Of a DNA stretch of 60,118 nucleotides, positions 1,784 through 29,484 are shown one piece after another (within the stretch, counting starts at the first letter, position 1; each line of letters opens with the position of its first letter). A program made the position numbers and the translations under genes. Origin of the DNA: Salibacterium aidingense DSM 18341 (GTDB lineage Bacteria > Bacillota > Bacilli > Bacillales > Marinococcaceae). The notes under the pieces were generated by a model that saw nothing but the letters and a program-made list of their open reading frames with translations, ran no database searches and was not told the DNA's origin. The stretch spans positions 1-60,118 of the forward strand of contig NZ_AUCI01000020.1 in assembly GCF_000429685.1 (NCBI RefSeq), given 5' to 3'.

Positions 1784-2710
1784 ATGAAAGGAATTATTTT
1801 AGCCGGAGGAAGTGGATCAAGGCTTTATCCGATGACAAAAAGCATTTCCAAACAGCTGCTTCCTGTTTACGATAAACCCATGATTTTTTATCCCTTATCG
1901 GTATTAATGCTTTCGGGCATTCGTGATGTATTGATTATATCCACTCCGCAGGATACTCCAAGATATAAAGAGCTGCTGGGTGACGGCAGTCAGTTTGGGA
2001 TTTCGCTTTCCTATGAAGTACAGACCTCCCCGGATGGTCTGGCCCAGGCATTTACCATCGGGGAGTCCTTTGTCGGCAATGATCATGTTGCGCTGATTCT
2101 TGGGGATAATATCTTTTACGGGCAGGGCTTCACCCCGCTTTTGCAGAAAGCGGCCCAGAGAGAAGAAGGAGCGACCGTGTTTGGGTACCGGGTTAGTGAA
2201 CCTGAACGATTCGGAGTCGTGGAATTTGATGAAAACCAGCGCGCGAAATCGATTGAAGAGAAGCCAAAAAAACCGAAATCCGAATTTGCCGTCACCGGTC
2301 TGTACTTTTATGACAATGATGTATTGGAGCTGGCCAAACAGACCCGTCCTTCGGACCGGGGAGAATTAGAAATCACCGATATTAATAAAGCATACCTCGA
2401 TGCCGGTAAATTAAATGTGGAACTTCTCGGGCGAGGCTTCGCCTGGCTGGATACAGGAACGCCGGAGTCCCTGTTTGATGCTTCCCAATTTATTGAAACG
2501 GTCGAAAAGCGGCAGGGCTTTAAGGTAGCCTGCCTGGAAGAGATTGCTTTTTATATGAACTATTTAAGCCGGGACGAACTGCTGCAGAAAATATATGAAA
2601 TGAAAAACAGCGAATATAAAAAATATTTACTTCGTACCGTGGAAAGGTCTCATGTTCCGCAAAGCAGCAAGGCCGCAGACGAAGAGCATAGAACGGAATT
2701 GATGAAATGA
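1784..2710 (+). CDS. rmlA: Glucose-1-phosphate thymidylyltransferase
   Basis: RmlA/RfbA joins dTTP and glucose-1-phosphate to give dTDP-glucose, the first step of the sugar pathway completed by the genes that follow. The nucleotide-binding loop [11 protein letters not shown] spans residues 6-16, the metal-binding LGDNIFYG lies near residue 110, and EKPKKPKS and [13 protein letters not shown] are RmlA landmarks. At 308 residues it is slightly longer than usual through a polar C-terminal tail. AAGGAGG precedes the ATG. Its TGA overlaps the ATG of rmlB, indicating translational coupling. With no rmlC or rmlD nearby, it feeds a 4-amino-6-deoxy sugar rather than rhamnose. Confidence 0.96.
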
Positions 2711-3744
2711 TGACCAGTTCCAAAACCATATTAGTAACCGGAGGCGCAGGGTTTATCGGGCTTCATTTTGTATCCTGGTTTGCCCAGAATAATCCAGATG
2801 TGACGGTATTGAACTATGACAAACTGACGTATGCTGCGGATCCGGATGGTGTCCGGGAATTGAACCGGATCCCGAATCATTATTTTGTGGAAGGTGATAT
2901 CACCGACCGCTCCCTGCTGGAAAATGTATTTGAAAATCATGATATCCGGGGGGTTATTCATTTTGCGGCAGAATCTCATGTGGACCGCTCGATTGATGAC
3001 CCGGATGAGTTTATTCGAACCAACGTGCACGGCACGTTTACCCTGCTCGATGTAGCAAAAAATTATTGGATGGAAGGAGCGGATCAACCCCGGCCGGGCT
3101 ACGAATCCGCTCGTTTTCACCATATTTCCACGGATGAAGTGTATGGAACCCTGGGGGCGGAGGGTCTTTTTTCCGAAGACTCTCCTTATGCCCCAAGCAG
3201 TCCATACAGCGCGAGCAAAGCAAGCTCGGATATGATTGTACAAAGCTATTATCGGACCTACGGCATGAATACGGTCATTACAAACTGCTCGAACAATTAT
3301 GGCCCAAAACAGCATGAGGAGAAGCTAATCCCGACGATTATCCGTAAAGCACTGCATCTGGAACCGATCCCCATATACGGGGATGGACAGAATATCAGAG
3401 ACTGGCTGTATGTTACCGATCACTGCAAAGGAGTGGAACTGGTCTTTCATGCCGGCCAGAAAGGCGCCGCTTATAACATCGGCGGTGAAAACGAACGCAC
3501 CAATCTATATATAGCAAGAAAAATTTGTGAAATACTGGACCGTCTGGTTCCGGATAAAAAAAGGGAAGACGGGCTGGAAAGTTATAAAGAGCTTATTTCT
3601 TTTGTAGAGGACCGCCCCGGCCATGACCGCAGGTACGCTGTGGATGCCAGTAAGATAAAAAAAGAGCTGGGATGGCAGGCGGATGAAGATTTTGAATCAG
3701 GAATTTTAAAAACGGTGGAGTGGTATGTCAATGAAAACAAATAA
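2707..3744 (+). CDS. rmlB: dTDP-glucose 4,6-dehydratase
   Basis: RmlB/RfbB, an extended short-chain dehydrogenase, converts dTDP-glucose to dTDP-4-keto-6-deoxyglucose with tightly bound NAD+. Seen are the NAD loop TGGAGFIG at residues 11-18, the dehydratase signature STDEVYG, the YSASK pair of the Tyr-xxx-Lys type, NNYGP and [12 protein letters not shown] near the C terminus. Length (345) is typical. ATG 2707 overlaps the rmlA stop; a second ATG follows at 2710. The gene overlaps the downstream glycosyltransferase start by 20 bases, so this is one tightly packed operon. Confidence 0.96.
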
Positions 3745-4717
3745 TCCTCATCTTTCCGTTGTTACCCCGGTTTATGGCTGCGGGGACTGCATCATGCAGC
3801 TGTATAACCGGTTGAAGGAAACCCTTGAGAAAATCACCCGTGACTTTGAGATCATTATGGTGGAGGACTGCAGCCCAGATCAATCATGGAGTGTTATTCA
3901 GCAGCTGACAAACAGAGACGCCCGGGTCAAAGGGATAAAGCTTGCCAAAAACTTCGGGCAGCATGTGGCTATCACTGCCGGTCTCGATGAAGCACATGGA
4001 GACTGGGTAGTGGTCATGGACTGCGATCTCCAGGATCAACCGGAAGAGATTACAAAACTTTATGCTAAAACGGCGGAGGGGTATGATGTGGTGTTTGCAC
4101 GACGTCATGAGCGCCACGACACCCTCGTGAAAAAATGGGAATCGAAGTTATTCTATAAAGTATACGATTATTTTACGGAAGGGAAATCAGACCCGACGAT
4201 AGCTAATTTCAGCATTTCCTCCCGCAAGGTAATTGAAAACTTCCAGCAGATGCGGGAGCAGAATCGCAATTTTCCATTATTTATTACGTGGATGGGATTT
4301 GATACAGCTGCCGTTGATGTAGAACATCAGCAGCGGATATCCGGCACTTCTTCCTATAATTTATCGAAACTGATAAATCTTGCGATTGATGGCATTGTCT
4401 CCCAGTCCAATAAGCCGCTGCGCTTATCGATAAAGTTTGGCTTTCTCCTCTCTTTTGGAGCTCTTATTTATGGACTTTATTTAATGTATCAATATTTCTT
4501 TATGTTTGAACCTGTTCCGGGCTGGACCAGTATTATGGTTTCGATCTATTTTATAGGCGGCCTGATTTTTGCCAACCTGGGTGTTTTGGGGCTGTATATG
4601 GGGAAAGTATTTAATGAAGTCAAAGACAGGCCTTTATATATCATTCAGGAATCGATAGGATTTCAGGAACACAATGTGGAAAAATCCGTGCCGGTTCTGG
4701 CATCAAAAAATAAATAG
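3725..4717 (+). CDS. GT2 polyprenyl-phosphate glycosyltransferase
   Basis: A 330-residue family 2 glycosyltransferase of the GtrB/CsbB/DPM1-like group, which moves a sugar from a nucleotide donor to undecaprenyl phosphate at the inner membrane face. The GT-A nucleotide-binding strand is LSVVTPVYG (residues 10-18), the metal site is DCDLQDQPE, and ISGTSSYNLSKL precedes two C-terminal hydrophobic helices (about 237-265 and 275-300), the usual layout. Start ATG 3725 lies inside rmlB; an alternative ATG at 3731 has better ribosome-site spacing. Next to dTDP-Fuc4NAc genes and a YkoS-like protein, its donor is probably dTDP-Fuc4NAc. Substrate is inferred, family is firm. Confidence 0.92.
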   Translation: MSMKTNNPHLSVVTPVYGCGDCIMQLYNRLKETLEKITRDFEIIMVEDCSPDQSWSVIQQLTNRDARVKGIKLAKNFGQHVAITAGLDEAHGDWVVVMDCDLQDQPEEITKLYAKTAEGYDVVFARRHERHDTLVKKWESKLFYKVYDYFTEGKSDPTIANFSISSRKVIENFQQMREQNRNFPLFITWMGFDTAAVDVEHQQRISGTSSYNLSKLINLAIDGIVSQSNKPLRLSIKFGFLLSFGALIYGLYLMYQYFFMFEPVPGWTSIMVSIYFIGGLIFANLGVLGLYMGKVFNEVKDRPLYIIQESIGFQEHNVEKSVPVLASKNK

Positions 4718-4731
4718 GGGAGGACGTTACA

Positions 4732-5400
4732 ATGGAAGAGTTGATGAGAGAAACGCCGTGGGATAAAAGGGCGCTTGGGATAGATACGTATGAACTGCTC
4801 GTTCATTCCGAGGAAGCACTTAAAAAAAGCGATGCTGTTAAAGGGCATTTTACGATTAAGGTCAACCCGCTGGATTCCAAAGCCCTGCTTCATGAGTATG
4901 GTTTTTATTATACCGATACGCTGCTGGCTCCGGTCTGTGATAAACACCAGTTTATTTCCCATGAAGATGAAAAACTGACATTAATGTATAACATAAACCG
5001 GGACGATGTGATTGCAATTTCACAGGGAGCTTACGGCCACGGCCGGTTTCACCGCGATTTTAAACTGGAACGCAGCGGCGCAGATCAGCGCTATGATAAT
5101 TGGCTCGGGCAGTTATACGATGAAAATAAAGTGTGGGGCCTGGCGTATGAAGGAGAACTGGCCGGTTTTTTTGCTTTTTCCGAAAACCAGGTGCTGCTCC
5201 AGGCTTTCAAACCAGAGTATCAGGGAAGAGGATTGTCCAAATACTTTTGGAGTAAAGCAGTCCGCGTATTATTTGATAAAGGATATGAGGAAGTGAAGAC
5301 CTCTATTTCAGCAGCCAACTTAGCGATGGTAAACCTTGTATCTTCCCTGGGCTTTAAATTTAAAGACGCTGTCGATATTTATCATAAATTGAACGAGTAG
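4732..5400 (+). CDS. WecD-like dTDP-4-amino-4,6-dideoxygalactose N-acetyltransferase (GNAT)
   Basis: A 222-residue GNAT acetyltransferase. The acetyl-CoA motif reads QAFKPEYQGRGLSKYFW (about 160-176), followed by the NLAMVNLVSSLGFK element typical of GNAT C termini. The N-terminal half has the FGI/LGID start and the LHEYGFYYTDT stretch, which resemble WecD of enterobacterial common antigen synthesis (224 residues), an enzyme that acetylates dTDP-Fuc4N to dTDP-Fuc4NAc. A WecE-type aminotransferase two genes downstream supports that role. GGGGAGG precedes the ATG. An acetyltransferase acting on another amino sugar remains possible. Confidence 0.78.
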   Translation: MEELMRETPWDKRALGIDTYELLVHSEEALKKSDAVKGHFTIKVNPLDSKALLHEYGFYYTDTLLAPVCDKHQFISHEDEKLTLMYNINRDDVIAISQGAYGHGRFHRDFKLERSGADQRYDNWLGQLYDENKVWGLAYEGELAGFFAFSENQVLLQAFKPEYQGRGLSKYFWSKAVRVLFDKGYEEVKTSISAANLAMVNLVSSLGFKFKDAVDIYHKLNE

Positions 5401-5420
5401 AGGCAGAGAGGATTTTTTGA

Positions 5421-5786
5421 GTGGGTTATTTGTATATTTTCGGCACGATTTTTTTTACGGTGTATGGTCAGCTTATGTTAAAGTGGAGAATTTCGAAATA
5501 TGGAACTCTCCCGGCCGAGTTAATGGATAAAGTGATCTTCCTTTTGAAGCTGCTGTTGGACCCGCTTGTATTGTCGGGTTTTCTTTCTGCTTTTGTGGCT
5601 TCTATGTTTTGGATGGCAGCGATGACGAAGTTTGATATCAGCTATGCGTATCCATTTATGAGCTTATCGTTTATGCTTGTGTTTTTTCTGTCCATTTTAC
5701 TGTTTAACGAGCCGATTACAACGTACAAAATTATAGGTTTAATCCTGATTATTGCGGGTATTCTTGTGACAAGTCAATCCGCTTAA
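5421..5786 (+). CDS. Small DMT/SMR-type membrane protein, possible lipid-sugar flippase subunit
   Basis: A 121-residue protein with four hydrophobic helices (about 4-20, 40-63, 72-92, 98-117), the size and pattern of EmrE-type small transporters and of ArnE/ArnF, which flip undecaprenyl-phosphate aminoarabinose. GLILIIAGILVTSQ is the usual last helix of these proteins. Translation starts at GTG 5421 after AGAGAGGA. Its place between wecD-like and wecE, beside a polyprenyl-phosphate glycosyltransferase, suggests that it flips the lipid-linked sugar across the membrane. The function is inferred from size, topology and neighbours. Confidence 0.72.
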   Translation: MGYLYIFGTIFFTVYGQLMLKWRISKYGTLPAELMDKVIFLLKLLLDPLVLSGFLSAFVASMFWMAAMTKFDISYAYPFMSLSFMLVFFLSILLFNEPITTYKIIGLILIIAGILVTSQSA

Positions 5787-5809
5787 CATCAAAGCAATGG
5801 AGGAAAATG

Positions 5810-6940
5810 ATGATCCCTTTTAATCAGCCCCCGGTCACAGGGGACGAACCATATTACATGCAGAAGGCTATAGAAAATGGGAAGCTGTCAGGAGATGGGC
5901 CGTTTACAAAAGAGTGTCAGACATGGATGGAAAAAGTCTTTCACTGCCCAAAGGCCTATTTAACGCCATCCTGTACACATGCCCTGGAAATGGCTGCCAT
6001 GCTTGCAGGGATCCAGCCTGGAGATGAAGTCATCATGCCTTCGTATACGTTTGTATCGACGGCCAATGCCTTTGTACTTCAGGGGGCGGTTATTGTTTTT
6101 GTCGATATTCGTCCTGATACGATGAACATAGATGAAACGCAGATAGAATCCGCGATCACGGAGAAAACCAAAGCGATTGTTCCTGTTCATTATGCCGGAG
6201 TAGCCTGTGACATGGACATCATTTTATCTATAGCCGCGCGGTACAAGCTGAAGGTTATCGAGGATGCGGCGCAGGGCGTCATGAGTACATATAAAGGTCA
6301 GGCGCTCGGAACGCTAGGTGATTATGGCTGCTACAGTTTTCATGACACCAAAAATTACACAAGCGGAGAAGGCGGTGCCCTGCTTTTAAAGGATAAGGCT
6401 GCACAAGAACAGGCAGAAATCATAAGAGAAAAAGGCACCAACCGCTCGAAGTTTCTCCGCGGCCAGGTGGATAAATATACATGGGTCGATGTCGGCTCGT
6501 CCTATCTCCCCGGGGAGTTAAATGCCGCGTATTTATATGCTCAATTCCAGCATGCGGATGCTATCAATAATGCCCGTCTTAAGGCTTGGAACACCTACTA
6601 TGAAGAACTGCGCTCCTTAGAGGAGACAAAGGACATAGAGTTACCGGTGGTTCCGTCAGGATGCGAACACAATGCGCACATGTTTTATATTAAAACGCAG
6701 AACATTGAAGAAAGAACAGCTTTAGTGGAGTGGTTGAAAAAAGATGAAATTATGCCGGCCTTCCATTATGTCCCGCTTCACTCCTCTGAGGCCGGGAGAA
6801 AGTTCAGCCGATTTCACGGGAAAGACCGATTTACCACCCAGGAAAGTGAGAGACTGCTTCGCCTTCCTATGTATTATGGCTTAAATCAGGAAAACATAAA
6901 AGAGACCACCAAGCGGATAAGGAGTTTTTACAAGTGTTGA
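5810..6940 (+). CDS. wecE: dTDP-4-amino-4,6-dideoxygalactose transaminase
   Basis: A PLP-dependent sugar aminotransferase of the DegT/DnrJ/EryC1 family. It aminates dTDP-4-keto-6-deoxyglucose, with glutamate as donor, to dTDP-4-amino-4,6-dideoxygalactose. The start MIPFNQPPV, TPSCTHALEMAA, DEVIMPSYTFVSTANAF and FVDIRPDTMNIDE closely follow WecE/RffA as I remember it. PLP ligands are Asp152 in EDAAQG and the Schiff-base Lys181 in FHDTKNYT. Two ATGs stand in tandem (5807, 5810); the second has the better distance from TGGAGG (5798-5803). Its stop overlaps the start of the next gene. The call is firm. Confidence 0.94.
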   Translation: MIPFNQPPVTGDEPYYMQKAIENGKLSGDGPFTKECQTWMEKVFHCPKAYLTPSCTHALEMAAMLAGIQPGDEVIMPSYTFVSTANAFVLQGAVIVFVDIRPDTMNIDETQIESAITEKTKAIVPVHYAGVACDMDIILSIAARYKLKVIEDAAQGVMSTYKGQALGTLGDYGCYSFHDTKNYTSGEGGALLLKDKAAQEQAEIIREKGTNRSKFLRGQVDKYTWVDVGSSYLPGELNAAYLYAQFQHADAINNARLKAWNTYYEELRSLEETKDIELPVVPSGCEHNAHMFYIKTQNIEERTALVEWLKKDEIMPAFHYVPLHSSEAGRKFSRFHGKDRFTTQESERLLRLPMYYGLNQENIKETTKRIRSFYKC

Positions 6941-8646
6941 AGGAAAGGACATGGATCCTTATAAGTCTCGGTTTAATATTGGTCTACTTATCTCCGCTGA
7001 TCCTTCTCGGGGAAGGAGTACACCTCCGGATCCATGATAATCTGGATTCGAATTTAATCTGGTACAAGACATTAGTAGAAAATCATGTGCTGTTTGCTCC
7101 CAGTGACAAAGAAATTCCCTCCATCATGAATGGGCTGCCGAGGGAATCCTTAAGCGCGGAACTAAGCATGTTTGCCCTGCTGTTTACATTGTTTGATCCC
7201 TTTCCTGCCTATGCGGTTAATTTGTTTTTGATGCGGTTTATTGCCTTTTTTGGCATGTACCTTCTTCTGAAGAAACATGTCCTGCCGTCGAACAAACCCG
7301 GAGCCTTTATCAGCGTGGGAACGGCTCTGGCTTTTTCCCTCACTGCGTTCTGGCCGTTTGGAGGGTTAAGCTTTGCCGGTGTACCGCTGGTTTTATACGC
7401 CTTTTTAAACCTGCGGAATCGGGAAAATAACTGGAAAAATTGGCTTATTATCGGACTTGTCCCTTTTTATTCAAGTTTTATCGTCTCATTTATCTTTTTC
7501 CTGGCTATTATGAGTGGTCTCTGGCTGGTGGACGCCATCCGGAAAAAACAGCCGAACTGGCTGTTTTTTACTGGTATCGCGGTAATGACCGCCCTTTATC
7601 TAATAAAGCAGTACAGACTGGTGTATGGAGAATTAATGGGAAAAGGATTTACGACCCATCGTGCGGAATTTGACCGCGGTCACCGGGACTGGGAAACCGT
7701 CATTAATTTTTTTGGAAATAATCTGCTTCATTCTCACTCTCATTCGTATTCGCTGCATTATCCGTTTGCTTTTTATACAGCGGTATTCGCGCTTTTATTT
7801 ATAGGAATAATCGCTGTGGTCCGGCGCTGGAAGCTGTCATGGAAGCCGGCTCCGTTAACAGCCGGGGAAAAAGCCGTTCCATTTTTGCTTTTATCCATTG
7901 TCGTATTTTCTTTTTGGATCTCGATTTGGAATTGGGAAGGCATGCGGGTGCTGAAAGATGTGAGTGATTTAATTAATGAATTCAACTTCGGCCGGTTTCA
8001 TTTATTAAATATTGTTACCTGGTACGTGGTTTTTGCTCTAGCTTTGATGATGATCCAGCGCAGAATAAAGTTTGGGATGGTACTTGTCGTTCTTCTTTTA
8101 ATCGGACAAGTGACAGGAGAAACTACCCGCCATCATGAATTTAAATATAGAAACATTGATTATCCTTCGTATGAGGAGTTTTATTCAGAGGAACTATTCT
8201 CTGAGGTCCAGTCATATATCGGACAGGATCCGGAAGACTACCGGGTGGTAAGCATTGGCATGCACCCGGCCATTGCCCAGTATAATGGGTTTTACACGCT
8301 TGATTTCTACGTGACGATGTATCCGCTGGAATATAAGCATCAATTTGAGAACGTTATTGCAGGAGAACTTGAAAAAAACAGCACCCTCGATAACTATTAT
8401 AGTACCTGGGGCGGCCGGGTTTACACTTTTGCAGATGAACTGGGGAAAAATTACTTATTCACGAAAGACAAAGATAAAACAATAGAAGACCTGGATTTTG
8501 GAACAGAAGCTTTTAAAGAAATGGGCGGGGAATATATACTTTCCGCGGTCGAAATCGAAAATGCCGGGGAAAATGATCTGGAGCTGGAAAAAGTGTTTGA
8601 AAAAGAATCGTCGGCGTGGAGGATCCACTTATACAAAGCGGAATAA
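6934..8646 (+). CDS. DUF6044/YkoS-like polytopic membrane protein, probable GT-C-type sugar transferase
   Basis: A 570-residue protein with about ten hydrophobic helices in the first 400 residues and a soluble, probably extracytoplasmic C-terminal domain (about 405-570). The N-terminal motif EGVHLRIHDNLDSN, with an acidic pair after the first helix, fits the DUF6044 family including B. subtilis YkoS, whose gene neighbours the GT2 gene ykoT. Such proteins are thought to use lipid-linked sugars outside the cell, as YfhO does with CsbB. Start is GTG 6934 inside the wecE end; TTG 6937 is also possible. As last gene of the cassette it is the likely transferase of Fuc4NAc to a wall or membrane polymer. 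The role is inferred. Confidence 0.78.
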   Translation: MLKERTWILISLGLILVYLSPLILLGEGVHLRIHDNLDSNLIWYKTLVENHVLFAPSDKEIPSIMNGLPRESLSAELSMFALLFTLFDPFPAYAVNLFLMRFIAFFGMYLLLKKHVLPSNKPGAFISVGTALAFSLTAFWPFGGLSFAGVPLVLYAFLNLRNRENNWKNWLIIGLVPFYSSFIVSFIFFLAIMSGLWLVDAIRKKQPNWLFFTGIAVMTALYLIKQYRLVYGELMGKGFTTHRAEFDRGHRDWETVINFFGNNLLHSHSHSYSLHYPFAFYTAVFALLFIGIIAVVRRWKLSWKPAPLTAGEKAVPFLLLSIVVFSFWISIWNWEGMRVLKDVSDLINEFNFGRFHLLNIVTWYVVFALALMMIQRRIKFGMVLVVLLLIGQVTGETTRHHEFKYRNIDYPSYEEFYSEELFSEVQSYIGQDPEDYRVVSIGMHPAIAQYNGFYTLDFYVTMYPLEYKHQFENVIAGELEKNSTLDNYYSTWGGRVYTFADELGKNYLFTKDKDKTIEDLDFGTEAFKEMGGEYILSAVEIENAGENDLELEKVFEKESSAWRIHLYKAE

Positions 8647-8730: not shown

Positions 8731-10569
8731 ATGAGGACAACGTTTGTACCATCCAGAAAGACTTTAGCAGAAGAGATGGAAGAGTTAGTGAAAACAGCCC
8801 GTGGCGATAAAGCGGCAGCGCTGGTTATTGAAAATGCAAGGCTGGTAAATGTCGTTTCCGGAGAAATCCAGCCGGGCATGTCCATTGCGGTGCAGGGGTC
8901 CCGGATCGCTTATGTTGGGAAAAATGCTTCTCATACCATTGGAGAAAAAACACAGCGGATAGATGCCAAAGATAAATATGTAACACCGGGGCTTATCGAT
9001 GGCCACTGTCATATTGAAAGCAGCCAGATTACTCCGAAACAGTTTGCCCGGGCGGTCCTGCCAAAAGGAACCACCGGCGGCTTTTTTGATGCGCATGAAA
9101 TTGCAAACGTGCTTGGTATGAAGGGACTGCGTTTGATGCTGGAGGAGCTGCGGAAGACACCGATGGCGGGTTATATGCAGGCGGCTTCCTGTGTCCCTTC
9201 CACCAGCAGAGAATTCGAAACAAGCGGGGCAGAAATCGGACCAGAAGAAGTCGCCGAAGCTTTCACCTGGGGCGATGATATGGTTGCTCTTGGGGAAGTG
9301 ATGAATTTTCCGGGGGTGGTATTCAGTGATGAAAAAATGCTGGGTGAAATAAAAGAGACCTTAAAAGCCGGCCGGGTGGCCGACGGGCATTACACGTGGC
9401 CCAGCGGAGACTGGAGAATGTCAGCCTATGCAGCAAGCGGAATTTCCGGCGATCACGAAATAACAAGTGCGGAGGAAGTCATGGACCGGGTGCGGCTCGG
9501 CATGTATGCAAAACTTCGGCGTGGTTCTGCTTGGCATGATGTTGTACCTACGATTAAAGCATATACTGAAAAGGGGATCGATACGCGACGGCTTCTTCTG
9601 GTAACCGATGACCGCAGCCCGGAATCCCTGGTAGACGAAGGACATATGGATTTTGTCGTGCGGCATGCGATGGAACAGGGAGTCCCGCCCGTCACGGCAT
9701 TTCAGATGGCAACCATTAATACAGCAGAGCGTTTTGGACTGTCCCAGGATCTGGGGTCTGTGACGCCCGGCCGCTATGCTGATATCTTAATACTGGAAGG
9801 ACCGCTTCCGGAAGTGAACATCAAAACGACGATTGCTGCAGGAATCGTCGCAGCAGAGCAGGGGGAAATGTGCGGAGACTGGGAAAGCAGTGGTTTTCCG
9901 GCGGAAGCAATGCAATCCGTCCACTTGCAGCCTGATTTTAAGCCGGACGACTTTCATATTGCTGTTCCGCAGGAGTTCCCTGATGGTACCTATACGGCAC
10001 GAGCGATAAAAGTACGGGAAAACCATGTGGATACAAAGGAAGAGCAAGTGCAGGTACCTGTAAAGAACGGGTTGCTTACCCTGCCGTCCACGGGGGACTT
10101 TTGTAAAATATCGGTGATAGAACGGCACGGGAAAAATGGCAACCAATCAACAGCCTTGTTATCAAATGCTGGTTTCTCCACCCCCGCGGCTATAGCCTCT
10201 ACCACCGCTCATGATTCTCATAACCTGATGGTGATTGGCAATGACGACGCACTAATGGCAGAAGCAGCTAACAGGGTTATCAAGATGCAGGGAGGGGTAA
10301 CCGTCCTGACCGAAAAGGAAACAGTCGAGCTGCCCCTAACCGTGGCGGGTCTTATGTCTCCGGAACCATTTGAAAAGACAGCCGAACAATCACGGGAGGT
10401 CAGCCGTGCGCTTGCTTCGGCCGGATGTACTATGAATTACGCCTTTATGACGCTGTCCTTGCTTGCGCTGGTTGTTATTCCGGAGCTGCGCCTTTCCGAC
10501 ACCGGACTGATTAAACACACCGATGAAGGGTTTTACCATGTGCCGCTCCTTATGGAAGAACAGGAATAA
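8731..10569 (+). CDS. ade: Adenine deaminase
   Basis: A 612-residue amidohydrolase of the adenine deaminase family, hydrolysing adenine to hypoxanthine and ammonia in purine salvage. Seen are DAKDKYVTPGLIDGHCHIESS, the metal-binding strand with paired His, the GTTGGFFDAHEIANV segment, DDRSPESLVDEGHMD and TINTAERFGLSQDLGSVTPGRYADI near the end of the barrel, then the family's C-terminal domain with MNYAFMTLSLLALVVIPELRLSD. B. subtilis has two relatives, AdeC and YerA, and either could be the ortholog. AAAGGAG precedes the ATG, and TATAAT at 8699-8704 is a likely -10 with a poor -35. Its hypoxanthine would feed the xanthine dehydrogenase genes 30 kb downstream. Confidence 0.9.
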   Translation: MRTTFVPSRKTLAEEMEELVKTARGDKAAALVIENARLVNVVSGEIQPGMSIAVQGSRIAYVGKNASHTIGEKTQRIDAKDKYVTPGLIDGHCHIESSQITPKQFARAVLPKGTTGGFFDAHEIANVLGMKGLRLMLEELRKTPMAGYMQAASCVPSTSREFETSGAEIGPEEVAEAFTWGDDMVALGEVMNFPGVVFSDEKMLGEIKETLKAGRVADGHYTWPSGDWRMSAYAASGISGDHEITSAEEVMDRVRLGMYAKLRRGSAWHDVVPTIKAYTEKGIDTRRLLLVTDDRSPESLVDEGHMDFVVRHAMEQGVPPVTAFQMATINTAERFGLSQDLGSVTPGRYADILILEGPLPEVNIKTTIAAGIVAAEQGEMCGDWESSGFPAEAMQSVHLQPDFKPDDFHIAVPQEFPDGTYTARAIKVRENHVDTKEEQVQVPVKNGLLTLPSTGDFCKISVIERHGKNGNQSTALLSNAGFSTPAAIASTTAHDSHNLMVIGNDDALMAEAANRVIKMQGGVTVLTEKETVELPLTVAGLMSPEPFEKTAEQSREVSRALASAGCTMNYAFMTLSLLALVVIPELRLSDTGLIKHTDEGFYHVPLLMEEQE

Positions 10570-11209: not shown

Positions 11210-14200
11210 ATGCGGATAGTGAAACAGGGGACAGCCTTATCCATGTCATTGTTGTTGGTATTTTCTCCACTGTCGGCACTGGCGGAAGACGTCGATACCG
11301 GAGAATGGGAATTCAGTACATTTGGTTCCAACACCGGCGAATCATCCAATCCTGATCCAGTTGAAGAAGATGATGGATCGGTAACCATTACCGCTGAAGG
11401 GGGGAAGATAGAGAGCGGTTCGGAAGGATTGTCCTATTATTTTAAGCAGCTCCCGTCGGATGCAAATTTTGAAATTACGACGAAAGCAACAGTAGAAAGC
11501 TATAACAGCGGCGATGGACAAGTTTCCTTCGGGCTTATGCTCCGGGATGAAGCCGGAGAAAATGGAGATACCAGTACGCAGACCGCTAATTATGTGGCAG
11601 CCGGAGGTCTGGGAGATGAAATGCAGGGTTTTTATAAAAAAGGCGATAATGATTACGAAAATTTAGAACCCTTTGACAATAAGTCTCCTGCCCCAGAAGA
11701 AGAATTTGATTTGCGCATACAGAAGTCTGGTGATACGTACCTTCTGGAATCGAATGGAGACACCCAGACCCTGATGGAAGAAGAAATGTTCTCAGAAGAA
11801 ATGACGGCCGGCTTTTATGCGGCAAGGGAGGCAGTTGTTCATTTCCGTGATTTTAATGTAGAAGTAAACGACAGGGAGGTCACGGGACTCGAAATTGATA
11901 CGGAAAACATGAAAACGAACTATTTAATCGATGAGGAGCTGGACGCCGAAGGGCTTCAGGTAACAGCGGCCCTCGCGGATGGAAGCGAAGAGGTGCTGTC
12001 GGCTGAGGATTATATTATCTCCGGTTTTAACAGCGGGGAAGCGGGAACAAATACTATTCTTGTCAGCTATAACGGGATAACAGAAGAGATAGATTTGACC
12101 ATTGAAGAACTATCGTTGACCAGTATGGACATCAAATATCATCCAGCAAAGACAACATATTACCGCGGGGATAAGTTTGATCCGGAAGGGCTTACGGTGA
12201 TTGGAGAATATAATGACGGATACAGGTCCGAAGAGTTGCAGTCGGAAGAGTACCGGCTTTTGATGGACGGAGAAGAAATCGGTGAAAATGATACCTTTGA
12301 AGAAGCCGGTGAGAAAACGGTCATCGTTGAGGCAGGTGACAAACCGGAAGTTTCAACCTCTTTTGATATCGTGGTGTCCGATGCCTCACTGACAGGTCTG
12401 GATATCCGCCAGCTGCCGGAAAAAACGACCTATTTCCTCGGGGATGAGCTTGATCTTGATGGAATGGTTGTTTATGCGGAATATGATGATGGCAGTGATG
12501 TAAGGCTGATGCGCGAAGATATGGAGGCTTCCGGTTTGGATACATCAGAACCGGGGGAGCGGCAGGTCACGATTACGCATAAAGGAGAAACAGCAGCTAT
12601 TGACGTAAAAGTGAAAGAAAAAGAAGGGACAGGTCTTGGTATCACGTCCTATCCTAAGACAACATTTGAAACCGGAGAGTCTTTTTCCACCGAAGGACTG
12701 GAAGTATCCAGACTTTACGATAATGGAGACGAAGAAGTACTGGAAGAAGGCCAATATACGGTGGATGATTCAGGGTTTGATTCATCATCGCCGGGCACCA
12801 ATGAAATAACGGTCGTACCCGAAGAGGAAAACATGGAAGCGATTTCTTATGATGTAACGGTAAGGGAAGTCTCGGAACTGGAATGGCAATCCATCATTTT
12901 CGGACAATCTGCCGGAGACGATTCGAATTCGGTGGAAGTCCTGGAAGACGGATCATCGGCTGCTTTGACCGCAGAGGGACCAAGCGGCGGTAAAATTACC
13001 GGAGATCATGATGGTATTTCCTATTACTATACTATCATAGATGAAGAGGAAGATAATTTTGAGCTGTCGGCGGATATCCAGGTTAACGATTATGCCAAGG
13101 ATCCGCATGACGGCCAGGAATCGTTTGGCATCATGGCAAGGGACGCCATTGGAGAGGATGGCAGCTCCAGTGTATTCGCTTCTAACATTGCGGCTGTCGG
13201 TGGTTACAGCGGCGGTACGATGGAAGAAAACGGCACGCAGCTGTTTGCACGAACCGGCGTGGAATCTTCGGATGGCGCCGGCAGTGAAGGCATTAAGAAA
13301 ATTATGTTGAACGACGAAAAGCCCGGCCCTTCCAATACTCATCCGGAAGAGGATTATCATCTGACCTTGTCCAAGACGAACAGCGGATTCACCGCGACCT
13401 TGAATGACGGCGAAGAAGAAATCATTTATGAGCCGGATATTCTGAATGTCCAGGATGATAAAGTGTACGTCGGCTTTTACACTGCGCGGAAGGCGGATAT
13501 TGTTGTCGAAAATATTGATATGGAGGTAAGTGCAGCAGCAACGGATCCGCCAAAAGTGGAACCGCCTGTAGAACCAGTGGAACCAGAGATCGAAAATTTA
13601 TCTTTGCAGGAAACTTCGGAAACAGATCAATATAAAGTCAGGATGCAGGCGAATGTCAACGGCAGTGTTACATTGAAGCAGGGCAGAGAAACGATCGCGG
13701 AGCAGGAAGAAATGACAGCCGGCGAAATGAAAGTGATCGAAACAACGCTTCCGGAAAATACAGATACAAATTTCACTGCTGTCTTTTTACCGGATGACAC
13801 GCAGACGTTGACGTCCTATGACCAGATTGTCACCAATTTCTCTGTGACCAACCGGACCTTTGAAGGGGACATTTATGTTGCTCCAGACGCTGATGCTAGC
13901 AGTGAAGGAACAGAAGCTGATCCGGTTGCTCTTGATACAGCCGTGGATTTTGTAGGTCCTGGACAGACGATATTGGTAACGGATGGAGAATATGTGCGGG
14001 ATGAGATGCTGATGATAGAACAGTACCATGATGGTACGGAAGATGCGCGTAAGACACTGAAAGCTGTTCCCGGCGCCAATCCTGTGATCGATTTTGACAA
14101 ACAGTCCAAAGGGGTGGAACTGAGCGGTGACTACTGGCATGTCGAAGGCCTTGACTTTGCCCGTTCCGCCGGGAACACCAAAGGTTTTGTCATCGGAGGC

Positions 14201-15310
14201 AGCCACAATATAGTGGAAAACAGCAGATTTTATGAGCACGGTGATACGGGGCTGCAAATCAGCCGGACTGATCCGAACGAAGACGATAAATCAAAGTGGC
14301 CCTCAGACAATCTTGTATTGAACAGTACTTCTTTTGACAATCGGGATCCGTCTGAAAACAATGCGGATGGATTTGCAGCCAAGCTGACGTCCGGGGAAGG
14401 CAATGTGTTCCGCGGAACGATTGCGCATCATAATATTGATGACGGCTGGGATCTGTACACAAAAGTCGGTACGGGAGCGATCGGTGCTGTCACGATTGAA
14501 GACAGTATTGCCTATAACAATGGGTTTTTAACGGACGGCACCGAAGGAACCGGTGATAAAAACGGCTTTAAGCTCGGCGGCGAAGGAGTAAACGTACCAC
14601 ACGTGATCCGGGATAGTATCGCTTTTAATAATGGTGCGGCCGGGTTCACGAGCAACAGCAACCCTGCAATTATCGCGGAGGATAATATTTCCTTTAATAA
14701 CGCAGGCGGCAACCTTGATTTCTCGACGTATGCTGATATTGAAGAGGAATTCGAGCTGGAACATTTTGTCTCCTATCAGAAAGATTATGATGCAGAAGAC
14801 AGCTATCCGGAATATTTGGAAGCAGACCACAACTATCTATTTGACGGATCTGTTTCTGATAACGCTTCCGGAACGACGTTGTCGGATGACAATTTTGTCA
14901 GCCTTGAACCAGAGCTGCCATACGAGCGCGATGACCAGGGAAATATTGTATGGGGAGACTTCCTTGATTTCATGGCACCTGACGGAAAGGAAGATTCCGA
15001 AACGATCAAAGCAGACGTCAAATTTACCCCTCCCGTACTGAATGTAAATGGGGGAGGGAAAGCCACTGCCCATATTGAACTGCCGGACGACTATGATGCC
15101 CGGGATATAGTGTTTGATTCGATCCTTCTCAATGAAGAAGTTGAGCCGGTTAACCAACCGGGAAACAGCCGAAACTATAAAGTTCAGTTTAATCGGCAGG
15201 ACCTGGCAGACGTGCTGGACGCAGGAAATGAAGCAGAGATCACAATTACCGGAGAAATGGAGTCCGGTGAGCCGATGGAAGGCAGTACAGTAATCAAGGT
15301 GAAAGAATAA
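11210..15310 (+). CDS. Secreted multidomain pectate lyase, PL9 family
   Basis: A 1366-residue exported enzyme expected to cleave polygalacturonate by beta-elimination. A signal peptide ends near ALA-25. Then come a beta-rich module (about 30-225), four bacterial Ig-like repeats (about 226-555, each with TTYFLGDELDLDGMVVYAEY-type cores), a second copy of the first module (about 560-775), a linker with PPVEPVEPE, a right-handed beta-helix (about 885-1255) and a C-terminal module. Asp1053, Asp1077, Asp1078 and Asp1081 have exactly the spacing of the four calcium ligands of Erwinia Pel9A (209, 233, 234, 237), and Lys1121 in NGFKLGG fits the catalytic lysine. Strongly acidic, as in halophiles. No LPxTG or SLH anchor was seen. 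GGGAGG precedes ATG 11210. Confidence 0.9.
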   Translation: MRIVKQGTALSMSLLLVFSPLSALAEDVDTGEWEFSTFGSNTGESSNPDPVEEDDGSVTITAEGGKIESGSEGLSYYFKQLPSDANFEITTKATVESYNSGDGQVSFGLMLRDEAGENGDTSTQTANYVAAGGLGDEMQGFYKKGDNDYENLEPFDNKSPAPEEEFDLRIQKSGDTYLLESNGDTQTLMEEEMFSEEMTAGFYAAREAVVHFRDFNVEVNDREVTGLEIDTENMKTNYLIDEELDAEGLQVTAALADGSEEVLSAEDYIISGFNSGEAGTNTILVSYNGITEEIDLTIEELSLTSMDIKYHPAKTTYYRGDKFDPEGLTVIGEYNDGYRSEELQSEEYRLLMDGEEIGENDTFEEAGEKTVIVEAGDKPEVSTSFDIVVSDASLTGLDIRQLPEKTTYFLGDELDLDGMVVYAEYDDGSDVRLMREDMEASGLDTSEPGERQVTITHKGETAAIDVKVKEKEGTGLGITSYPKTTFETGESFSTEGLEVSRLYDNGDEEVLEEGQYTVDDSGFDSSSPGTNEITVVPEEENMEAISYDVTVREVSELEWQSIIFGQSAGDDSNSVEVLEDGSSAALTAEGPSGGKITGDHDGISYYYTIIDEEEDNFELSADIQVNDYAKDPHDGQESFGIMARDAIGEDGSSSVFASNIAAVGGYSGGTMEENGTQLFARTGVESSDGAGSEGIKKIMLNDEKPGPSNTHPEEDYHLTLSKTNSGFTATLNDGEEEIIYEPDILNVQDDKVYVGFYTARKADIVVENIDMEVSAAATDPPKVEPPVEPVEPEIENLSLQETSETDQYKVRMQANVNGSVTLKQGRETIAEQEEMTAGEMKVIETTLPENTDTNFTAVFLPDDTQTLTSYDQIVTNFSVTNRTFEGDIYVAPDADASSEGTEADPVALDTAVDFVGPGQTILVTDGEYVRDEMLMIEQYHDGTEDARKTLKAVPGANPVIDFDKQSKGVELSGDYWHVEGLDFARSAGNTKGFVIGGSHNIVENSRFYEHGDTGLQISRTDPNEDDKSKWPSDNLVLNSTSFDNRDPSENNADGFAAKLTSGEGNVFRGTIAHHNIDDGWDLYTKVGTGAIGAVTIEDSIAYNNGFLTDGTEGTGDKNGFKLGGEGVNVPHVIRDSIAFNNGAAGFTSNSNPAIIAEDNISFNNAGGNLDFSTYADIEEEFELEHFVSYQKDYDAEDSYPEYLEADHNYLFDGSVSDNASGTTLSDDNFVSLEPELPYERDDQGNIVWGDFLDFMAPDGKEDSETIKADVKFTPPVLNVNGGGKATAHIELPDDYDARDIVFDSILLNEEVEPVNQPGNSRNYKVQFNRQDLADVLDAGNEAEITITGEMESGEPMEGSTVIKVKE

Positions 15311-19215: not shown

Positions 19216-19241
19216 AAATTAAAAAGGGGAGAGTGAAACAT

Positions 19242-20603
19242 TTGAAAAAAGTATGGTTGTTGTTGTGTGCAGCTCTTATGATTCTTTTTATTGCTGCTTG
19301 TGCAGGCAGTGGAACCGGCGGGGGTGAAGAAGCCGGCAGTGCGGATGATGCAGGAGGAGAGACAGACAGCGGGGGAGATGATGGAGAAAGCTCCGATAGT
19401 GACGGAGATCAAATTGAACTCCGCATGTCCTGGTGGGGGTCCCAAACCAGGCACGACATGACCGAAGAAATTATTCAAATGTACGAAGAAGAGAATCCGA
19501 ATGTTACGATTAACACGGAATTTTCCGGATTTGACGGTTACTTTGAAAGAATGGCAGCACAGGCTTCAGGCGGAAACCTGCCGGATATCATGCAGCAAAA
19601 CTTCGGGGAGTACGTAAACCAATACGCTGGAGAAGATTTGCTGGCTGATTTAGGACCATTTATTGAAGACGGCACGATTGATTTAGAAGGGGTGGAAGAC
19701 ACCGTCATTGAGAGTGGCCAGGTTGATGGCAAACAGGTAGGAATTCCGACCGGGACCAACGCTCTGATGGTTACCTACAATCCAACGTTGTTTGAAGGCA
19801 CCGGAGTAGACACTCCTTCCAATGACTGGACCTGGGATGAGTACATGGATATTACCGGCTCCATTGCTGAAGAAACGGGTCAATACGGTGTCAGCTACAC
19901 AGAACCGGATAACTTTTTTGAATATTACCTTCGCGAAAAGGGAGAAGCGCTGTTTAACGAGGATGGTTCAGGGCTCGGATATGAAGATGATCAGTTATTG
20001 ACGGACTATTTCTCCATGATGAAACAGCAGGTGGATAATGAAGTGAGTCCGGATTACAGTGTTGTAGATCAGATCCAGGGCCTCGAAGACGAACTTATCA
20101 CCCGCGGTGAGACAGCGGTTCATATTAAGAGCTGGTCTAACCAGTTCCAGACCCTATCGGACACATCGGATGATCCACTGGAAATTGTAATGCTGCCGGG
20201 GGAAAACAACGATCAGGGAATGTTCCAGAAGCCTTCCATGCTGTGGTCGATCGGGGAAAACTCAGAGCATAAGGAGCAGGCTGCAGACTTCATTAATTTC
20301 TATACAAATACAAAAGAAGTATTTGAAGTGATCGGCGGTGACCGCGGGGTACCGATTAAACCGGAAGTCCGTGAAGCGCTGGAGGAAGATGGGTTGAGTG
20401 AAACAGAACAGAAGATATTTGACTACCTTGAAGTCGTAGCAGATAACAGCACCGCGCCGGATACCAACTTCCCGCCGGAAGCCTCAGAAGTATTGCAGGC
20501 TCTGATGGACGCTGATGAAATGGTAATGTACGGAGAAATGACTCCGGAAGAAGGAGCGGAACACTTCAGACAGGAAGCAGAAACCATATTGTCGCAGCAA
20601 TAG
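19242..20603 (+). CDS. Sugar ABC transporter substrate-binding lipoprotein
   Basis: A family 1 extracellular solute-binding protein of about 453 residues. The signal peptide KKVWLLLCAALMILF ends in a lipobox IAAC, so the protein is lipid-anchored on the outer membrane face. A very acidic Gly/Ser/Asp linker (about 25-55) follows. EEENPNVTINTEFSGFDGYFERMAAQASGGNLPDIMQ is the typical start of the mature fold. TTG 19242 is preferred to GTG 19233 because AAGGGGAG lies only one or two bases from the GTG but about ten from the TTG. Two permeases follow. Neighbours suggest a pectin-derived oligosaccharide or sugar acid as ligand. No ATPase gene is nearby, so a shared MsmX-type ATPase is likely. Confidence 0.9.
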   Translation: MKKVWLLLCAALMILFIAACAGSGTGGGEEAGSADDAGGETDSGGDDGESSDSDGDQIELRMSWWGSQTRHDMTEEIIQMYEEENPNVTINTEFSGFDGYFERMAAQASGGNLPDIMQQNFGEYVNQYAGEDLLADLGPFIEDGTIDLEGVEDTVIESGQVDGKQVGIPTGTNALMVTYNPTLFEGTGVDTPSNDWTWDEYMDITGSIAEETGQYGVSYTEPDNFFEYYLREKGEALFNEDGSGLGYEDDQLLTDYFSMMKQQVDNEVSPDYSVVDQIQGLEDELITRGETAVHIKSWSNQFQTLSDTSDDPLEIVMLPGENNDQGMFQKPSMLWSIGENSEHKEQAADFINFYTNTKEVFEVIGGDRGVPIKPEVREALEEDGLSETEQKIFDYLEVVADNSTAPDTNFPPEASEVLQALMDADEMVMYGEMTPEEGAEHFRQEAETILSQQ

Positions 20604-20616
20604 GGTGAAGAAAAGA

Positions 20617-20656
20617 GGTCCTGTACTCTAAAAGATGTTCAGGACCCTTTTCATTT
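20617..20656 (+). terminator. Attenuating hairpin between binding protein and permeases
   Basis: GGTCCTG and CAGGACC pair around a 16-base loop and are followed by CTTTTCATTT. Such partial terminators commonly keep permease levels below those of the binding protein. Confidence 0.65.
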
Positions 20657-20678
20657 AAGAGTGAAAGGAGTGGAACAG

Positions 20679-21629
20679 ATGCAGGAAGCACAGACAGAAG
20701 AGAGACAATTAAACACTCCACCGGATCCATCTTCTATGAAAAAGAGAAAGAAGCCGGTGAAAGATATAGACAACAAAATGGGGTATTTGTTTCTCAGCCC
20801 ATTTATATTTGGGACGATAGCGTTTATGTTGTTCCCGATGGCGTATTCTCTGTATTTATCATTTACGGATTACAACCTGGTTGGTACGCCGCAGTGGGCT
20901 GGATTGGCGAACTACAAGGAAATGTTTACAAATGATCCGCAATTCTGGGATGCCATACGTGTCACATTCTTTTACGCAGGTACGGCTGTTCCTGTCCGGC
21001 TTGTGTTTGCCTTATTAATTGCTTTGGCCTTAAATAAAGTGGTCGAAATGGTGGGAATTTACCGGACTCTTCTTTATCTTCCTTCGATTGTGGGCGGAAG
21101 TATCGGTGTATCGATCATGTGGAGACAATTGTTTGGTAACGACGGAGCAATTAACTCCTTTTTAGAAAGTATTGGTTTGCAGGGTCACTCATGGCTTGGG
21201 GATCCTGATACTGCGATCTGGACTTTGGTTATATTATACGGTTGGCAGTTTGGATCTTCCATGATTATTTTTCTCGCCGGCCTTCGAAATATCCCCAGTA
21301 TTTATTATGAAGCCGCCGAAGTAGACGGAGCGAAACCGCTGCAGAAGTTTTTCAAAATAACCATACCAATGCTTACACCTGTTATTTTATTTAATGTCAT
21401 TATGCAGGTGATTCATGGGTTTATGGCGTTTACACCAGCCTTTATTGTTACCGAAGGCGGTCCGATCAACAGCACCCTGCTTTACGTCCTTTATATGTAC
21501 CGGCAGGCTTTCCAGTTTTTCGATATGGGATACGCCTCGGCGCTGGCCTGGGTGATGCTTCTGATCATTGGTATTTTTACAGCGATTATTTTTAAAAGCT
21601 CCGATTACTGGGTGCATTATGATAATTAA
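20679..21629 (+). CDS. Sugar ABC transporter permease (MalF type)
   Basis: A 316-residue permease with six hydrophobic helices after a charged N-terminal tail of about 30 residues. The ATPase-contact loop reads YEAAEVDGAKPLQKFFKITIPMLTP, matching the EAA motif with the invariant glycine. GYLFLSPFIFG and LSFTDYNLVGTPQWAGLANYKEMF are typical MalF/LacF-like openings. ATG 20679 is chosen because AAAGGAG (20664-20670) sits 8 bases ahead; the frame itself opens at GTG 20661. It is separated from the binding-protein gene by an attenuating hairpin and is followed by the partner permease after 18 bases. Confidence 0.93.
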   Translation: MQEAQTEERQLNTPPDPSSMKKRKKPVKDIDNKMGYLFLSPFIFGTIAFMLFPMAYSLYLSFTDYNLVGTPQWAGLANYKEMFTNDPQFWDAIRVTFFYAGTAVPVRLVFALLIALALNKVVEMVGIYRTLLYLPSIVGGSIGVSIMWRQLFGNDGAINSFLESIGLQGHSWLGDPDTAIWTLVILYGWQFGSSMIIFLAGLRNIPSIYYEAAEVDGAKPLQKFFKITIPMLTPVILFNVIMQVIHGFMAFTPAFIVTEGGPINSTLLYVLYMYRQAFQFFDMGYASALAWVMLLIIGIFTAIIFKSSDYWVHYDN

Positions 21630-21647
21630 TAAAAGGGGGTATGGAGC

Positions 21648-22496
21648 ATGACATTTAAAACAAAGAAACGGCTGAAAAAAATCACGCAGCATACCTTGCT
21701 TGGACTGTTCACGCTCGTTATGCTGTATCCTCTAATATGGATGCTGGCCAGTTCACTAAAAGAAAGTTCGAATGTGTTTGTGGATGCACACAGCCTGATC
21801 CCATCAGCTTGGGAATTTTCGAACTATGTTGATGGATGGAAAGGTTTTGCCGGGATTTCGTTTACCACATTCTACAAGAACACTTTTATCATAGTGGGGA
21901 TAACTACAATCGGCAGTATTATATTTTCGGCAGTGGCCGCCTACGGATTTGCAAGAATTAATTTTACAGGGCGGAAAATGTGGTTTGCCCTGATGCTTAT
22001 GACGATGATGCTGCCGTTTGAAATGGTAATGATTCCACAGTATATCATGTTTAACTGGTTTGAGTTGATAGATACGTATCTGCCGCTGATCCTGCCTACC
22101 TTTTTCGGGTATCCGTTCTTTATCTTTCTGATGATTCAGTTTATCCGGACGATCCCGAAAGAATTGGACCAGGCGGCGCGAATTGACGGATGTAATACGA
22201 TCTCCATTTTCTTTCGAATAATCGTTCCATTAATTGTGCCAGCGATGATGACATCGACGATTTTCTCTTTCTACTGGCGCTGGGATGACTTCATGGCCCC
22301 CTTGATTTACCTGCAGAGTCCGGAGAAGTATCCGGTGTCGCTGGCTCTGAAGCTCTTCTCTGATCCGGAAGCTGTGACAAATTGGGGAGCATTGTTTGCG
22401 ATGACTACCTTAAGTCTGCTGCCGATCATGATCATTTTCTTTATCTTTCAGCGGTATATTGTAGATGGGATCAGCACAAGCGGTCTGAAAGGATAA
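21648..22496 (+). CDS. Sugar ABC transporter permease (MalG type)
   Basis: A 282-residue permease with six hydrophobic helices. The EAA loop DQAARIDGCNTISIFFRIIVPLIVPAMM is present near residue 180, and LYPLIWMLASSLKESSNVF is the usual MalG-type N terminus. AAAGGGGG precedes the ATG. It pairs with the permease just upstream to form the membrane channel of the importer. Confidence 0.93.
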   Translation: MTFKTKKRLKKITQHTLLGLFTLVMLYPLIWMLASSLKESSNVFVDAHSLIPSAWEFSNYVDGWKGFAGISFTTFYKNTFIIVGITTIGSIIFSAVAAYGFARINFTGRKMWFALMLMTMMLPFEMVMIPQYIMFNWFELIDTYLPLILPTFFGYPFFIFLMIQFIRTIPKELDQAARIDGCNTISIFFRIIVPLIVPAMMTSTIFSFYWRWDDFMAPLIYLQSPEKYPVSLALKLFSDPEAVTNWGALFAMTTLSLLPIMIIFFIFQRYIVDGISTSGLKG

Positions 22497-22538
22497 CATG
22501 GAGAGATTAATATAAAGATATAAAATGAGGTGTGCGGT

Positions 22539-23831: not shown

Positions 23832-23844
23832 AGGAGGACTTGGA

Positions 23845-24498: not shown

Positions 24499-24518
24499 GT
24501 ATTATAAAAAATAGAATA

Positions 24519-25337: not shown

Positions 25338-25353
25338 GAAGAGGGTTTTCTGT

Positions 25354-26325: not shown

Positions 26326-26356
26326 TGGACATTTTCCGGGGAAGAAGGGAAGGATA

Positions 26357-27676: not shown

Positions 27677-27691
27677 CAGGAGGAGTGCCTG

Positions 27692-29479: not shown

Positions 29480-29484
29480 GTTGG

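Follow-up and report, generated by a model that had tools for sequence, protein, structure and literature searches.

A conserved seven-gene cassette of Salibacterium aidingense predicted to serve transmembrane glycosylation with Fuc4NAc

Multi-component transmembrane glycosylation systems such as CsbB-GtcA-YfhO, GtlA-GtcA-GtlB and GtrA-GtrB-Gtr(type) combine a family 2 glycosyltransferase (GT2) that loads a sugar onto polyprenyl phosphate, a small flippase and a multi-helix outer transferase. The sugars tabulated for them in the accessible part of PMC8035078 are galactose, glucose and N-acetylglucosamine, and the flippase gene is often given there as separate or unknown. The Arn pathway (ArnB, ArnC, ArnE/ArnF, ArnT), which places 4-amino-4-deoxy-L-arabinose (Ara4N) on lipid A, unites, in a single operon of E. 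coli, an aminotransferase dedicated to C4, an N-acyl step that precedes a GT2, a flippase of the small multidrug resistance (SMR) type and an outer transferase. RmlA, RmlB, WecE and WecD together make dTDP-4-acetamido-4,6-dideoxy-D-galactose (dTDP-Fuc4NAc) according to the available text of the review PMC7439462, and Fuc4NAc is stated to be restricted to Gammaproteobacteria in the available text of the genome survey PMC7725333. Here we describe a locus of Salibacterium aidingense DSM 18341 that shares features with all of these systems. It lies in a stretch of 60,118 nucleotides, hereafter the window, which is contig C19 of a 4.42 Mb genome in 55 contigs.

Seven genes occupy positions 1784-8646 on a single strand, with overlaps or gaps of at most 20 bases (4 bases of overlap between rmlA and rmlB), in the order rmlA, rmlB, GT2, GNAT, ArnE/ArnF-type small membrane protein, wecE, DUF6044 (Table 1). 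An earlier note on this DNA had described seven overlapping open reading frames (ORFs) here; we confirm the operon, and Pfam and NCBIfam matches give the families. We consider it probable that the cassette is a self-contained transmembrane glycosylation system for Fuc4NAc. RmlA and RmlB would produce dTDP-4-keto-6-deoxyglucose, which WecE would aminate at C4 to dTDP-Fuc4N, and the GNAT would convert the latter to dTDP-Fuc4NAc by an acylation for which acetyl-CoA is the most likely donor. At the inner face, the GT2 would load the sugar onto undecaprenyl phosphate. A dimer of the ArnF-type protein would flip undecaprenyl-phosphate-Fuc4NAc, and DUF6044, as a GT-C type enzyme, would transfer the sugar to a glycopolymer or another acceptor outside. 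The idea that donor synthesis, lipid loading, flipping and transfer are united in one cassette, already put forward in the earlier note, is supported by both the families and the conserved context. The assignments of RmlA, RmlB and WecE and the conservation of the cassette are firm at the sequence level; for the GNAT substrate, the GT2 donor and carrier, flipping and transfer, we infer the likely roles from families, slot substitution and co-occurrence.

Table 1. The seven genes of the cassette, with positions in the window, assigned or expected functions and family matches
Gene and function	Position	Strand	Match
rmlA, glucose-1-phosphate thymidylyltransferase	1784..2710	+	TIGR01207 484 bits, cut-off 361
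rmlB, dTDP-glucose 4,6-dehydratase	2707..3744	+	TIGR01181 456 bits, cut-off 365
GT2, GtrB/ArnC kind; expected undecaprenyl-phosphate-sugar synthesis	3725..4717	+	PF00535
GNAT, expected dTDP-Fuc4N N-acyltransferase	4732..5400	+	PF00583; distant WecD relative; conserved block
ArnE/ArnF-type SMR/EamA protein, expected undecaprenyl-phosphate-Fuc4NAc flippase	5421..5786	+	PF00892; NF002816 ArnF
WecE, dTDP-4-keto-6-deoxyglucose C4 transaminase, to dTDP-Fuc4N	5807..6940	+	TIGR02379 646 bits, cut-off 435
DUF6044 membrane protein, cassette clade; expected GT-C transferase	6934..8646	+	PF19510 689 bits, cut-off 27

We examined conservation in 397 genomes, an even sample of the order to which the species belongs. 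WecE exceeded its cut-off in 24 of these genomes (25 genes), with a wide gap between true WecE proteins, of at least 593 bits, and the next protein at 260. The complete seven-gene order was present at 13 of the 25 WecE loci (the window, L062, L069, L070, L071, L074, L075 and L080-L085) and, because it recurs to this extent, is not a matter of chance. Five more loci (L065, L066, L072, L073 and L079) carry GT2-GNAT-ArnF-WecE without an adjacent DUF6044, L072 also being devoid of rmlA and rmlB at the cassette, while L068 consists of rmlA-WecE-DUF6044 in the same genome that holds the cassette of L073. The GNAT profile detected 18 genomes, in every one of them within the GT2-GNAT-ArnF-WecE block. 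DUF6044 adjoins the block in 13 of these 18, and four of the other five hold a copy of the cassette clade elsewhere. Kinship among genomes makes a simple co-occurrence probability misleading; the association of wecE, GNAT, DUF6044 and GT2 genes that the earlier note proposed to look for in relatives is nevertheless borne out by these counts. The six WecE genes of GNAT-less genomes each have another N-acyltransferase-type protein in the sequence retrieved around them, all below model cut-offs: of TIGR03570 (NeuD/PglB/VioB) type in L063, L067, L076, L077 and L078 (more than 8 kb from WecE in L067), and a WecD-type GNAT in L064. As a separate observation, L076 and L078 have further neighbours in common besides WecE and the NeuD/VioB-type acetyltransferase; these could belong to an island for glycosylation of flagella or of the surface, flagella being a guess from gene sizes.

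A scan of genome contigs with the GNAT profile confirmed 172 relatives, from which we used the best 80, a choice that favours GNAT-like loci; in six of them no GNAT ORF was called and the gene was located by tblastn. The set comprises 24 Bacilli loci and 56 others, from Gallionella, other Betaproteobacteria, Methylobacter, Zetaproteobacteria, Cyanobacteria, Desulfobacteraceae, Omnitrophica, Gemmatimonadota, Planctomycetota and Lucifera among them. The core is nearly constant: GT2 lies directly upstream of GNAT at 76 of the 80 loci (24/24 Bacilli, 52/56 others) and WecE within 7 kb of it at 75 (24/24 and 51/56). The other components vary, as described by counts from flippase and GT-C profiles that were built from the same 80 loci. 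An ArnF-type protein was found within 7 kb in 24/24 Bacilli and 27/56 other loci, and a GtrA-type protein after GNAT in none of the Bacilli and 12 of the others; the latter belong to cluster d12, named from one scanned member matching PF04138, and the count excludes three loci whose only hits were weak (27-29 bits) and lay outside the slot. DUF6044 is present at 21 Bacilli loci and at none of the others, PMT_2-type GT-C proteins at no Bacilli locus and 22 others. L113 carries a GtrII-type protein, and several non-Bacilli loci carry unnamed multi-helix proteins. At the thresholds used, rmlA and rmlB accompany 23 and 21 of the Bacilli cassettes and each only one of the others.

The GT2s of these cassettes, from Bacilli and other phyla together, form a single clade of 71 rows (Shimodaira-Hasegawa approximate likelihood ratio test, SH-aLRT, 97) apart from 27 YkoT-type GT2s, with one mis-picked row set aside, that of L149, which is a second GT2 of its locus; rows from the 80 loci were GT2 ORFs of 281-379 residues scoring above 200 bits. 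A fixed core with changing ends fits a donor-specific module joined to acceptor-specific transferases. We would put at about even the chance that the core (WecE, a new GNAT family, one GT2 clade), with interchangeable flippases (ArnF or GtrA) and acceptor transferases (the DUF6044 clade, PMT_2, GtrII and others), represents a phylum-spanning, unrecognised Fuc4NAc-on-undecaprenyl-phosphate pathway that moved between bacteria as a module. Our main interpretation, a predicted Fuc4NAc cassette of the multi-component transmembrane glycosylation kind, is well supported by context; within that kind it stands out by its breadth and modularity.

On the donor side, RmlA, RmlB and WecE all exceed curated NCBIfam cut-offs, and no second protein of the genome passes the RmlA cut-off, the runner-up scoring 51 bits. 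In a pairwise alignment of 375 columns, WecE shows 64% identity to its E. coli counterpart; it retains the SFHxTKNYT motif including the lysine and, compared with solved structures, scores 549 bits with WecE and 154 with the next family. Its model TIGR02379 bears in NCBIfam the name dTDP-4-amino-4,6-dideoxy-D-glucose transaminase, which would suit an aminotransferase making the gluco epimer, so that the sugar would be 4-acetamido-4,6-dideoxy-D-glucose (Qui4NAc) and not Fuc4NAc. Both the identity to E. coli WecE, whose product is reported as dTDP-Fuc4N (PMC7439462), and the distance to the next solved family speak against this, and we regard it as very improbable. Synthesis of dTDP-Fuc4NAc would follow the same four steps as the enterobacterial common antigen branch (RffH, RffG, WecD, WecE), from which the cassette differs in a GNAT distant from WecD and in a sugar expected on undecaprenyl phosphate instead of lipid II(ECA).

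The earlier note had called the fourth protein a WecD-like GNAT, a label that stands only as far as distant homology goes. The alignment of the GNAT profile to E. coli WecD spans 194 columns and shows 17% identity (E 3.4e-4), and Foldseek placed WecD (2fs5) second for the structural model (predicted local distance difference test, pLDDT, 90), with a TM-score of 0.75 both ways, the highest among the 50 hits listed. The window protein itself does not reach the cut-offs of the WecD equivalog models TIGR02382 and NF008212, having matched no WecD model. Among 18 members scanned, eight match NF008212 (best E 5e-9) and three TIGR02382 (best E 5e-4); the GNAT of L073 scores 19.1 against a cut-off of 219 with the WecD-type curated model. 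The sequence and the model thus point to a distant WecD relative, probably at most WecD-like in function.

At this distance the use of acetyl-CoA is not readily carried over from WecD, and the donor might be an N-acyl Fuc4N other than N-acetyl, or further modified, in a cassette otherwise the same. S-adenosylmethionine (SAM) methyltransferases do occur in or near many non-Bacilli blocks (for example L105 and L107), in clusters d4 (31 members), d13 (11) and d16 (8), assigned from one scanned member each; the sugar is therefore probably modified there and may be methylated. No methyltransferase lies between GNAT and WecE in the Bacilli cassettes, however, and WecD heads the structural hits by TM-score, so that we hold a different or modified acyl sugar to be unlikely here and retain Fuc4NAc. 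Cluster d4 had been considered as an ArnD-like deacetylase, an assignment rejected when the scanned member proved to be a SAM methyltransferase.

For lipid loading, the best PDB matches of the GT2 are GtrB (5ekp, E 2.4e-63; we take this to be the name of sll0501) and ArnC (9bhc, E 1.5e-42), and it is 29% identical to E. coli ArnC. GtrB and ArnC synthesise undecaprenyl-phosphate sugars. By type the cassette GT2 is a polyprenyl-phosphate sugar synthase that carries membrane helices at its C-terminal end; in relatives of this GT2, a crude hydropathy count found between one and three hydrophobic segments. The best named relative of the small membrane protein is ArnF (NF002816, 52 bits, E 7.6e-14). 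The same crude count gave mostly three segments, not four, for its relatives, so the label four-helix rests on the family. Gln17 and Tyr77 are invariant in nine aligned rows, E. coli ArnE and ArnF included. Lipid-flipping SMRs often have no central glutamate and retain a tyrosine switch, as the available portion of the review PMC9574504 describes, and the two invariant residues appear to fit this pattern, the matching of columns to positions being our own reading.

The small membrane protein of the window is of the PF00892/ArnF type and not of the GtrA kind. A GtrA flippase is not a strict mark of multi-component transmembrane glycosylation, since PMC8035078, in its accessible part, also counts Wzx-type flippases. 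A GtrA-type protein follows GNAT at 12 of the 80 loci, in the slot held elsewhere by the ArnF type, from which a like function may be drawn, and this supports the earlier proposal that the small drug/metabolite transporter (DMT) protein stands in for GtcA. Compared with CsbB-GtcA-YfhO-type systems, the cassette carries its own donor-synthesis genes, an ArnF-type flippase instead of GtrA and a predicted dTDP amino sugar. Compared with the Arn pathway, whose GT2 is related, it would use a dTDP-hexose and not a UDP-pentose; it has one flippase gene and not two and no counterpart of ArnA or ArnD among its seven genes, and DUF6044 replaces ArnT in Bacilli. At seven non-Bacilli loci a membrane protein has ArnT as its best reference match (25-32%).

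WecE also occurs in clusters that resemble Wzx-type polysaccharide loci (L063, L064 and L067), a resemblance based on shared multi-helix proteins and, in L067, a sugar phosphotransferase, with Wzx itself unconfirmed. A rival reading is that Fuc4NAc goes into an intracellularly made polymer, as it does in enterobacterial common antigen, which would leave other roles to DUF6044 and the ArnF-type protein. We find this very improbable for the cassette: E. coli WecB, WecC, WecF, WzxE and WzyE are the best reference match of no gene shown (at most 14 per locus) around the 24 Bacilli cassettes, which leaves them, unlike enterobacterial common antigen loci, with no WecF-type match nearby, the GT2 belongs to the polyprenyl-phosphate type, and DUF6044 adjoins most blocks.

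DUF6044 would carry out transfer outside the cell in the proposed Fuc4NAc system. It is present in 143 of the 397 genomes and in all 18 with the GNAT, the operon copy being the only one in its genome. Trees of 52, 58 and 82 sequences each set the cassette copies apart from the others by a branch with full support (27 versus 31 rows at 100/100 with 58 sequences; 31 versus 51 at SH-aLRT 100 in the quick tree of 82). The 51 non-cassette sequences were the 30 best-scoring, 20 lower-scoring listed and one from G088; adjacent cassette copies from the order were represented by ten of 13, five through named records, and broken or incomplete copies (G219:C19, G364:C10 and G246:C13) were left out. We call the non-cassette copies YkoS-type by family (B. 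subtilis was matched in a control) and by GT2 pairing, the named B. subtilis YkoS standing outside the tree. The lone DUF6044 copies of G015, G060, G176 and G293, genomes with a cassette and no adjacent DUF6044, belong to the cassette clade and have no GT2 within about 1.5 kb.

The earlier note had further suggested that the cassette would point to the kind of sugar used by YkoS-type proteins, an extension that our results do not support. The cassette shares with YkoS-YkoT of B. subtilis and GtlB of Listeria a pairing of DUF6044 with GT2 and conserved residues, yet its DUF6044 does not group with the YkoS-type, YkoT-paired copies, and the GT2s likewise fall into separate clades. No WecE was found in the flanks of the 30 top-scoring non-cassette loci (about 1.5 kb per side where the contig allows) or of the 20 lower-scoring ones (about 3 kb per side). 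A GT2 match accompanies 27 of the 30, with 28-36% identity to the window GT2, and three of the 30 have an RmlA-family match of 28-30% instead of or beside GT2; 14 of the 20 have a GT2 neighbour, one best matching ArnC. The accessible texts of PMC8035078 and PMC11898649 both give the sugar and substrate of YkoT-YkoS as unknown, the former listing its flippase as unknown too. Listeria GtlB, which we compared through the literature and outside the trees, is 49% identical to YkoS (PMC5836110) and needed for galactose on lipoteichoic acid (PMC7389260), a further difference from the cassette as proposed.

R32, D35, D38, S39 and N40 are each present in at least 97% of either DUF6044 clade (82 rows), and W43 and Y44 are also common to both; by our hydropathy reading R32, D35 and D38 would be situated in an outer loop. 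Foldseek with the DUF6044 model (pLDDT 71) returned five top hits that are all GT-C proteins, oligosaccharyltransferase chains, which we read as STT3, and the arabinosyltransferase AftA, at E 0.03-0.1 with none at or below 0.001.

A number of results weigh against a Fuc4NAc transmembrane system as proposed. The predicted sugar and carrier chemistry rests on sequence. No WecD model matched the window GNAT at E ≤ 10, HMMER filters hiding many weak matches, and WecD was absent from the hits of the 18-member GNAT profile among PDB sequences at E ≤ 0.01; the enzyme could use an acyl-CoA other than acetyl-CoA. The small membrane protein stays under both equivalog cut-offs (ArnF 52 of 99 bits, ArnE 32 of 92). 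At those E values the structural hits suggest a GT-C fold for DUF6044 and fall short of proof, and the DUF6044 profile gave no match to PDB sequences at E ≤ 1. Cassette genome G088 has no cassette-clade DUF6044, its only copy being YkoS-type with its own GT2; directly upstream of rmlA this genome encodes a protein of 557 residues that has nine hydrophobic segments, matches no Pfam family and may stand in for DUF6044. Lone DUF6044 copies are not special to cassette genomes, as 6 of the 20 lower-scoring YkoS-type loci are also without GT2. Beyond Bacilli, neither flippase type lies within 7 kb at 15 of the 56 loci (17 when two weak GtrA hits are dropped), and 34 have no PMT_2-type protein by profile.

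As to the acceptor, no LtaS-like protein was found in the genome with a Tuberibacillus LtaS-type query, a search run with no positive control; its six sulfatase-domain proteins have no membrane helix by the crude count, which gives five for the Tuberibacillus protein. Lipoteichoic acid of the LtaS kind is therefore an unlikely acceptor here. Two PF04464 proteins, presumably of the teichoic acid polymerase type, keep wall teichoic acid among the candidates. For this species we would sooner guess at wall teichoic acid, or some other glycopolymer of the wall, than at lipoteichoic acid. The genome search found no YfhO, and GtrA-domain proteins are encoded at two other places. The three Bacilli loci without DUF6044 (L121, L137 and L144, from Pullulanibacillus and Tuberibacillus) encode nearby, on the opposite strand, a protein that is about 630 residues long and has five hydrophobic segments; the one copy scanned, that of L137, has a sulfatase domain such as LtaS carries.

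We recognised no published description of the cassette in the literature searched, whose coverage mostly excluded subscription journals. As genomic predictions, the WecE-GNAT blocks argue against confinement of Fuc4NAc to Gammaproteobacteria as given in the available part of PMC7725333; if the prediction is true, Fuc4NAc-type sugars are common outside that class, contrary to that statement. We guess that the survey missed such loci because the GNAT is so unlike WecD. A single operon here names the probable sugar, carrier, flippase and transferase of one glycosylation system. It makes it possible to test whether an SMR-type protein flips undecaprenyl-phosphate sugars in a setting other than lipid A modification, and for the DUF6044 family it adds a second context to that of galactosylation. 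The changing partners round the fixed GT2-GNAT-WecE core amount to a natural experiment on donor versus acceptor specificity.

The operon is flanked by an aldo/keto reductase gene upstream and an adenine deaminase gene (8731-10569) directly downstream. A scan for promoters and terminators of the operon performed no better than on shuffled sequence. A gene similar in size to the deaminase gene (cluster d43; proteins uncompared with that of the window) occupies the same position at three other Salibacterium loci (L086-L088), so that the site looks stable within the genus. Further along the window, 11210-15310 encodes a 1366-residue protein with, by our reading, a signal-like start and four Big_3 immunoglobulin-like stretches, beyond which no Pfam match was found at E ≤ 1e-6. 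The region 19233-31038, with a solute-binding protein, a GFO/IDH/MocA oxidoreductase and a pair of histidine kinase and AraC-type response regulator in one run, looks like a locus for sugar uptake and use, and 42820-45078 encodes a large subunit of xanthine dehydrogenase type that binds molybdopterin.

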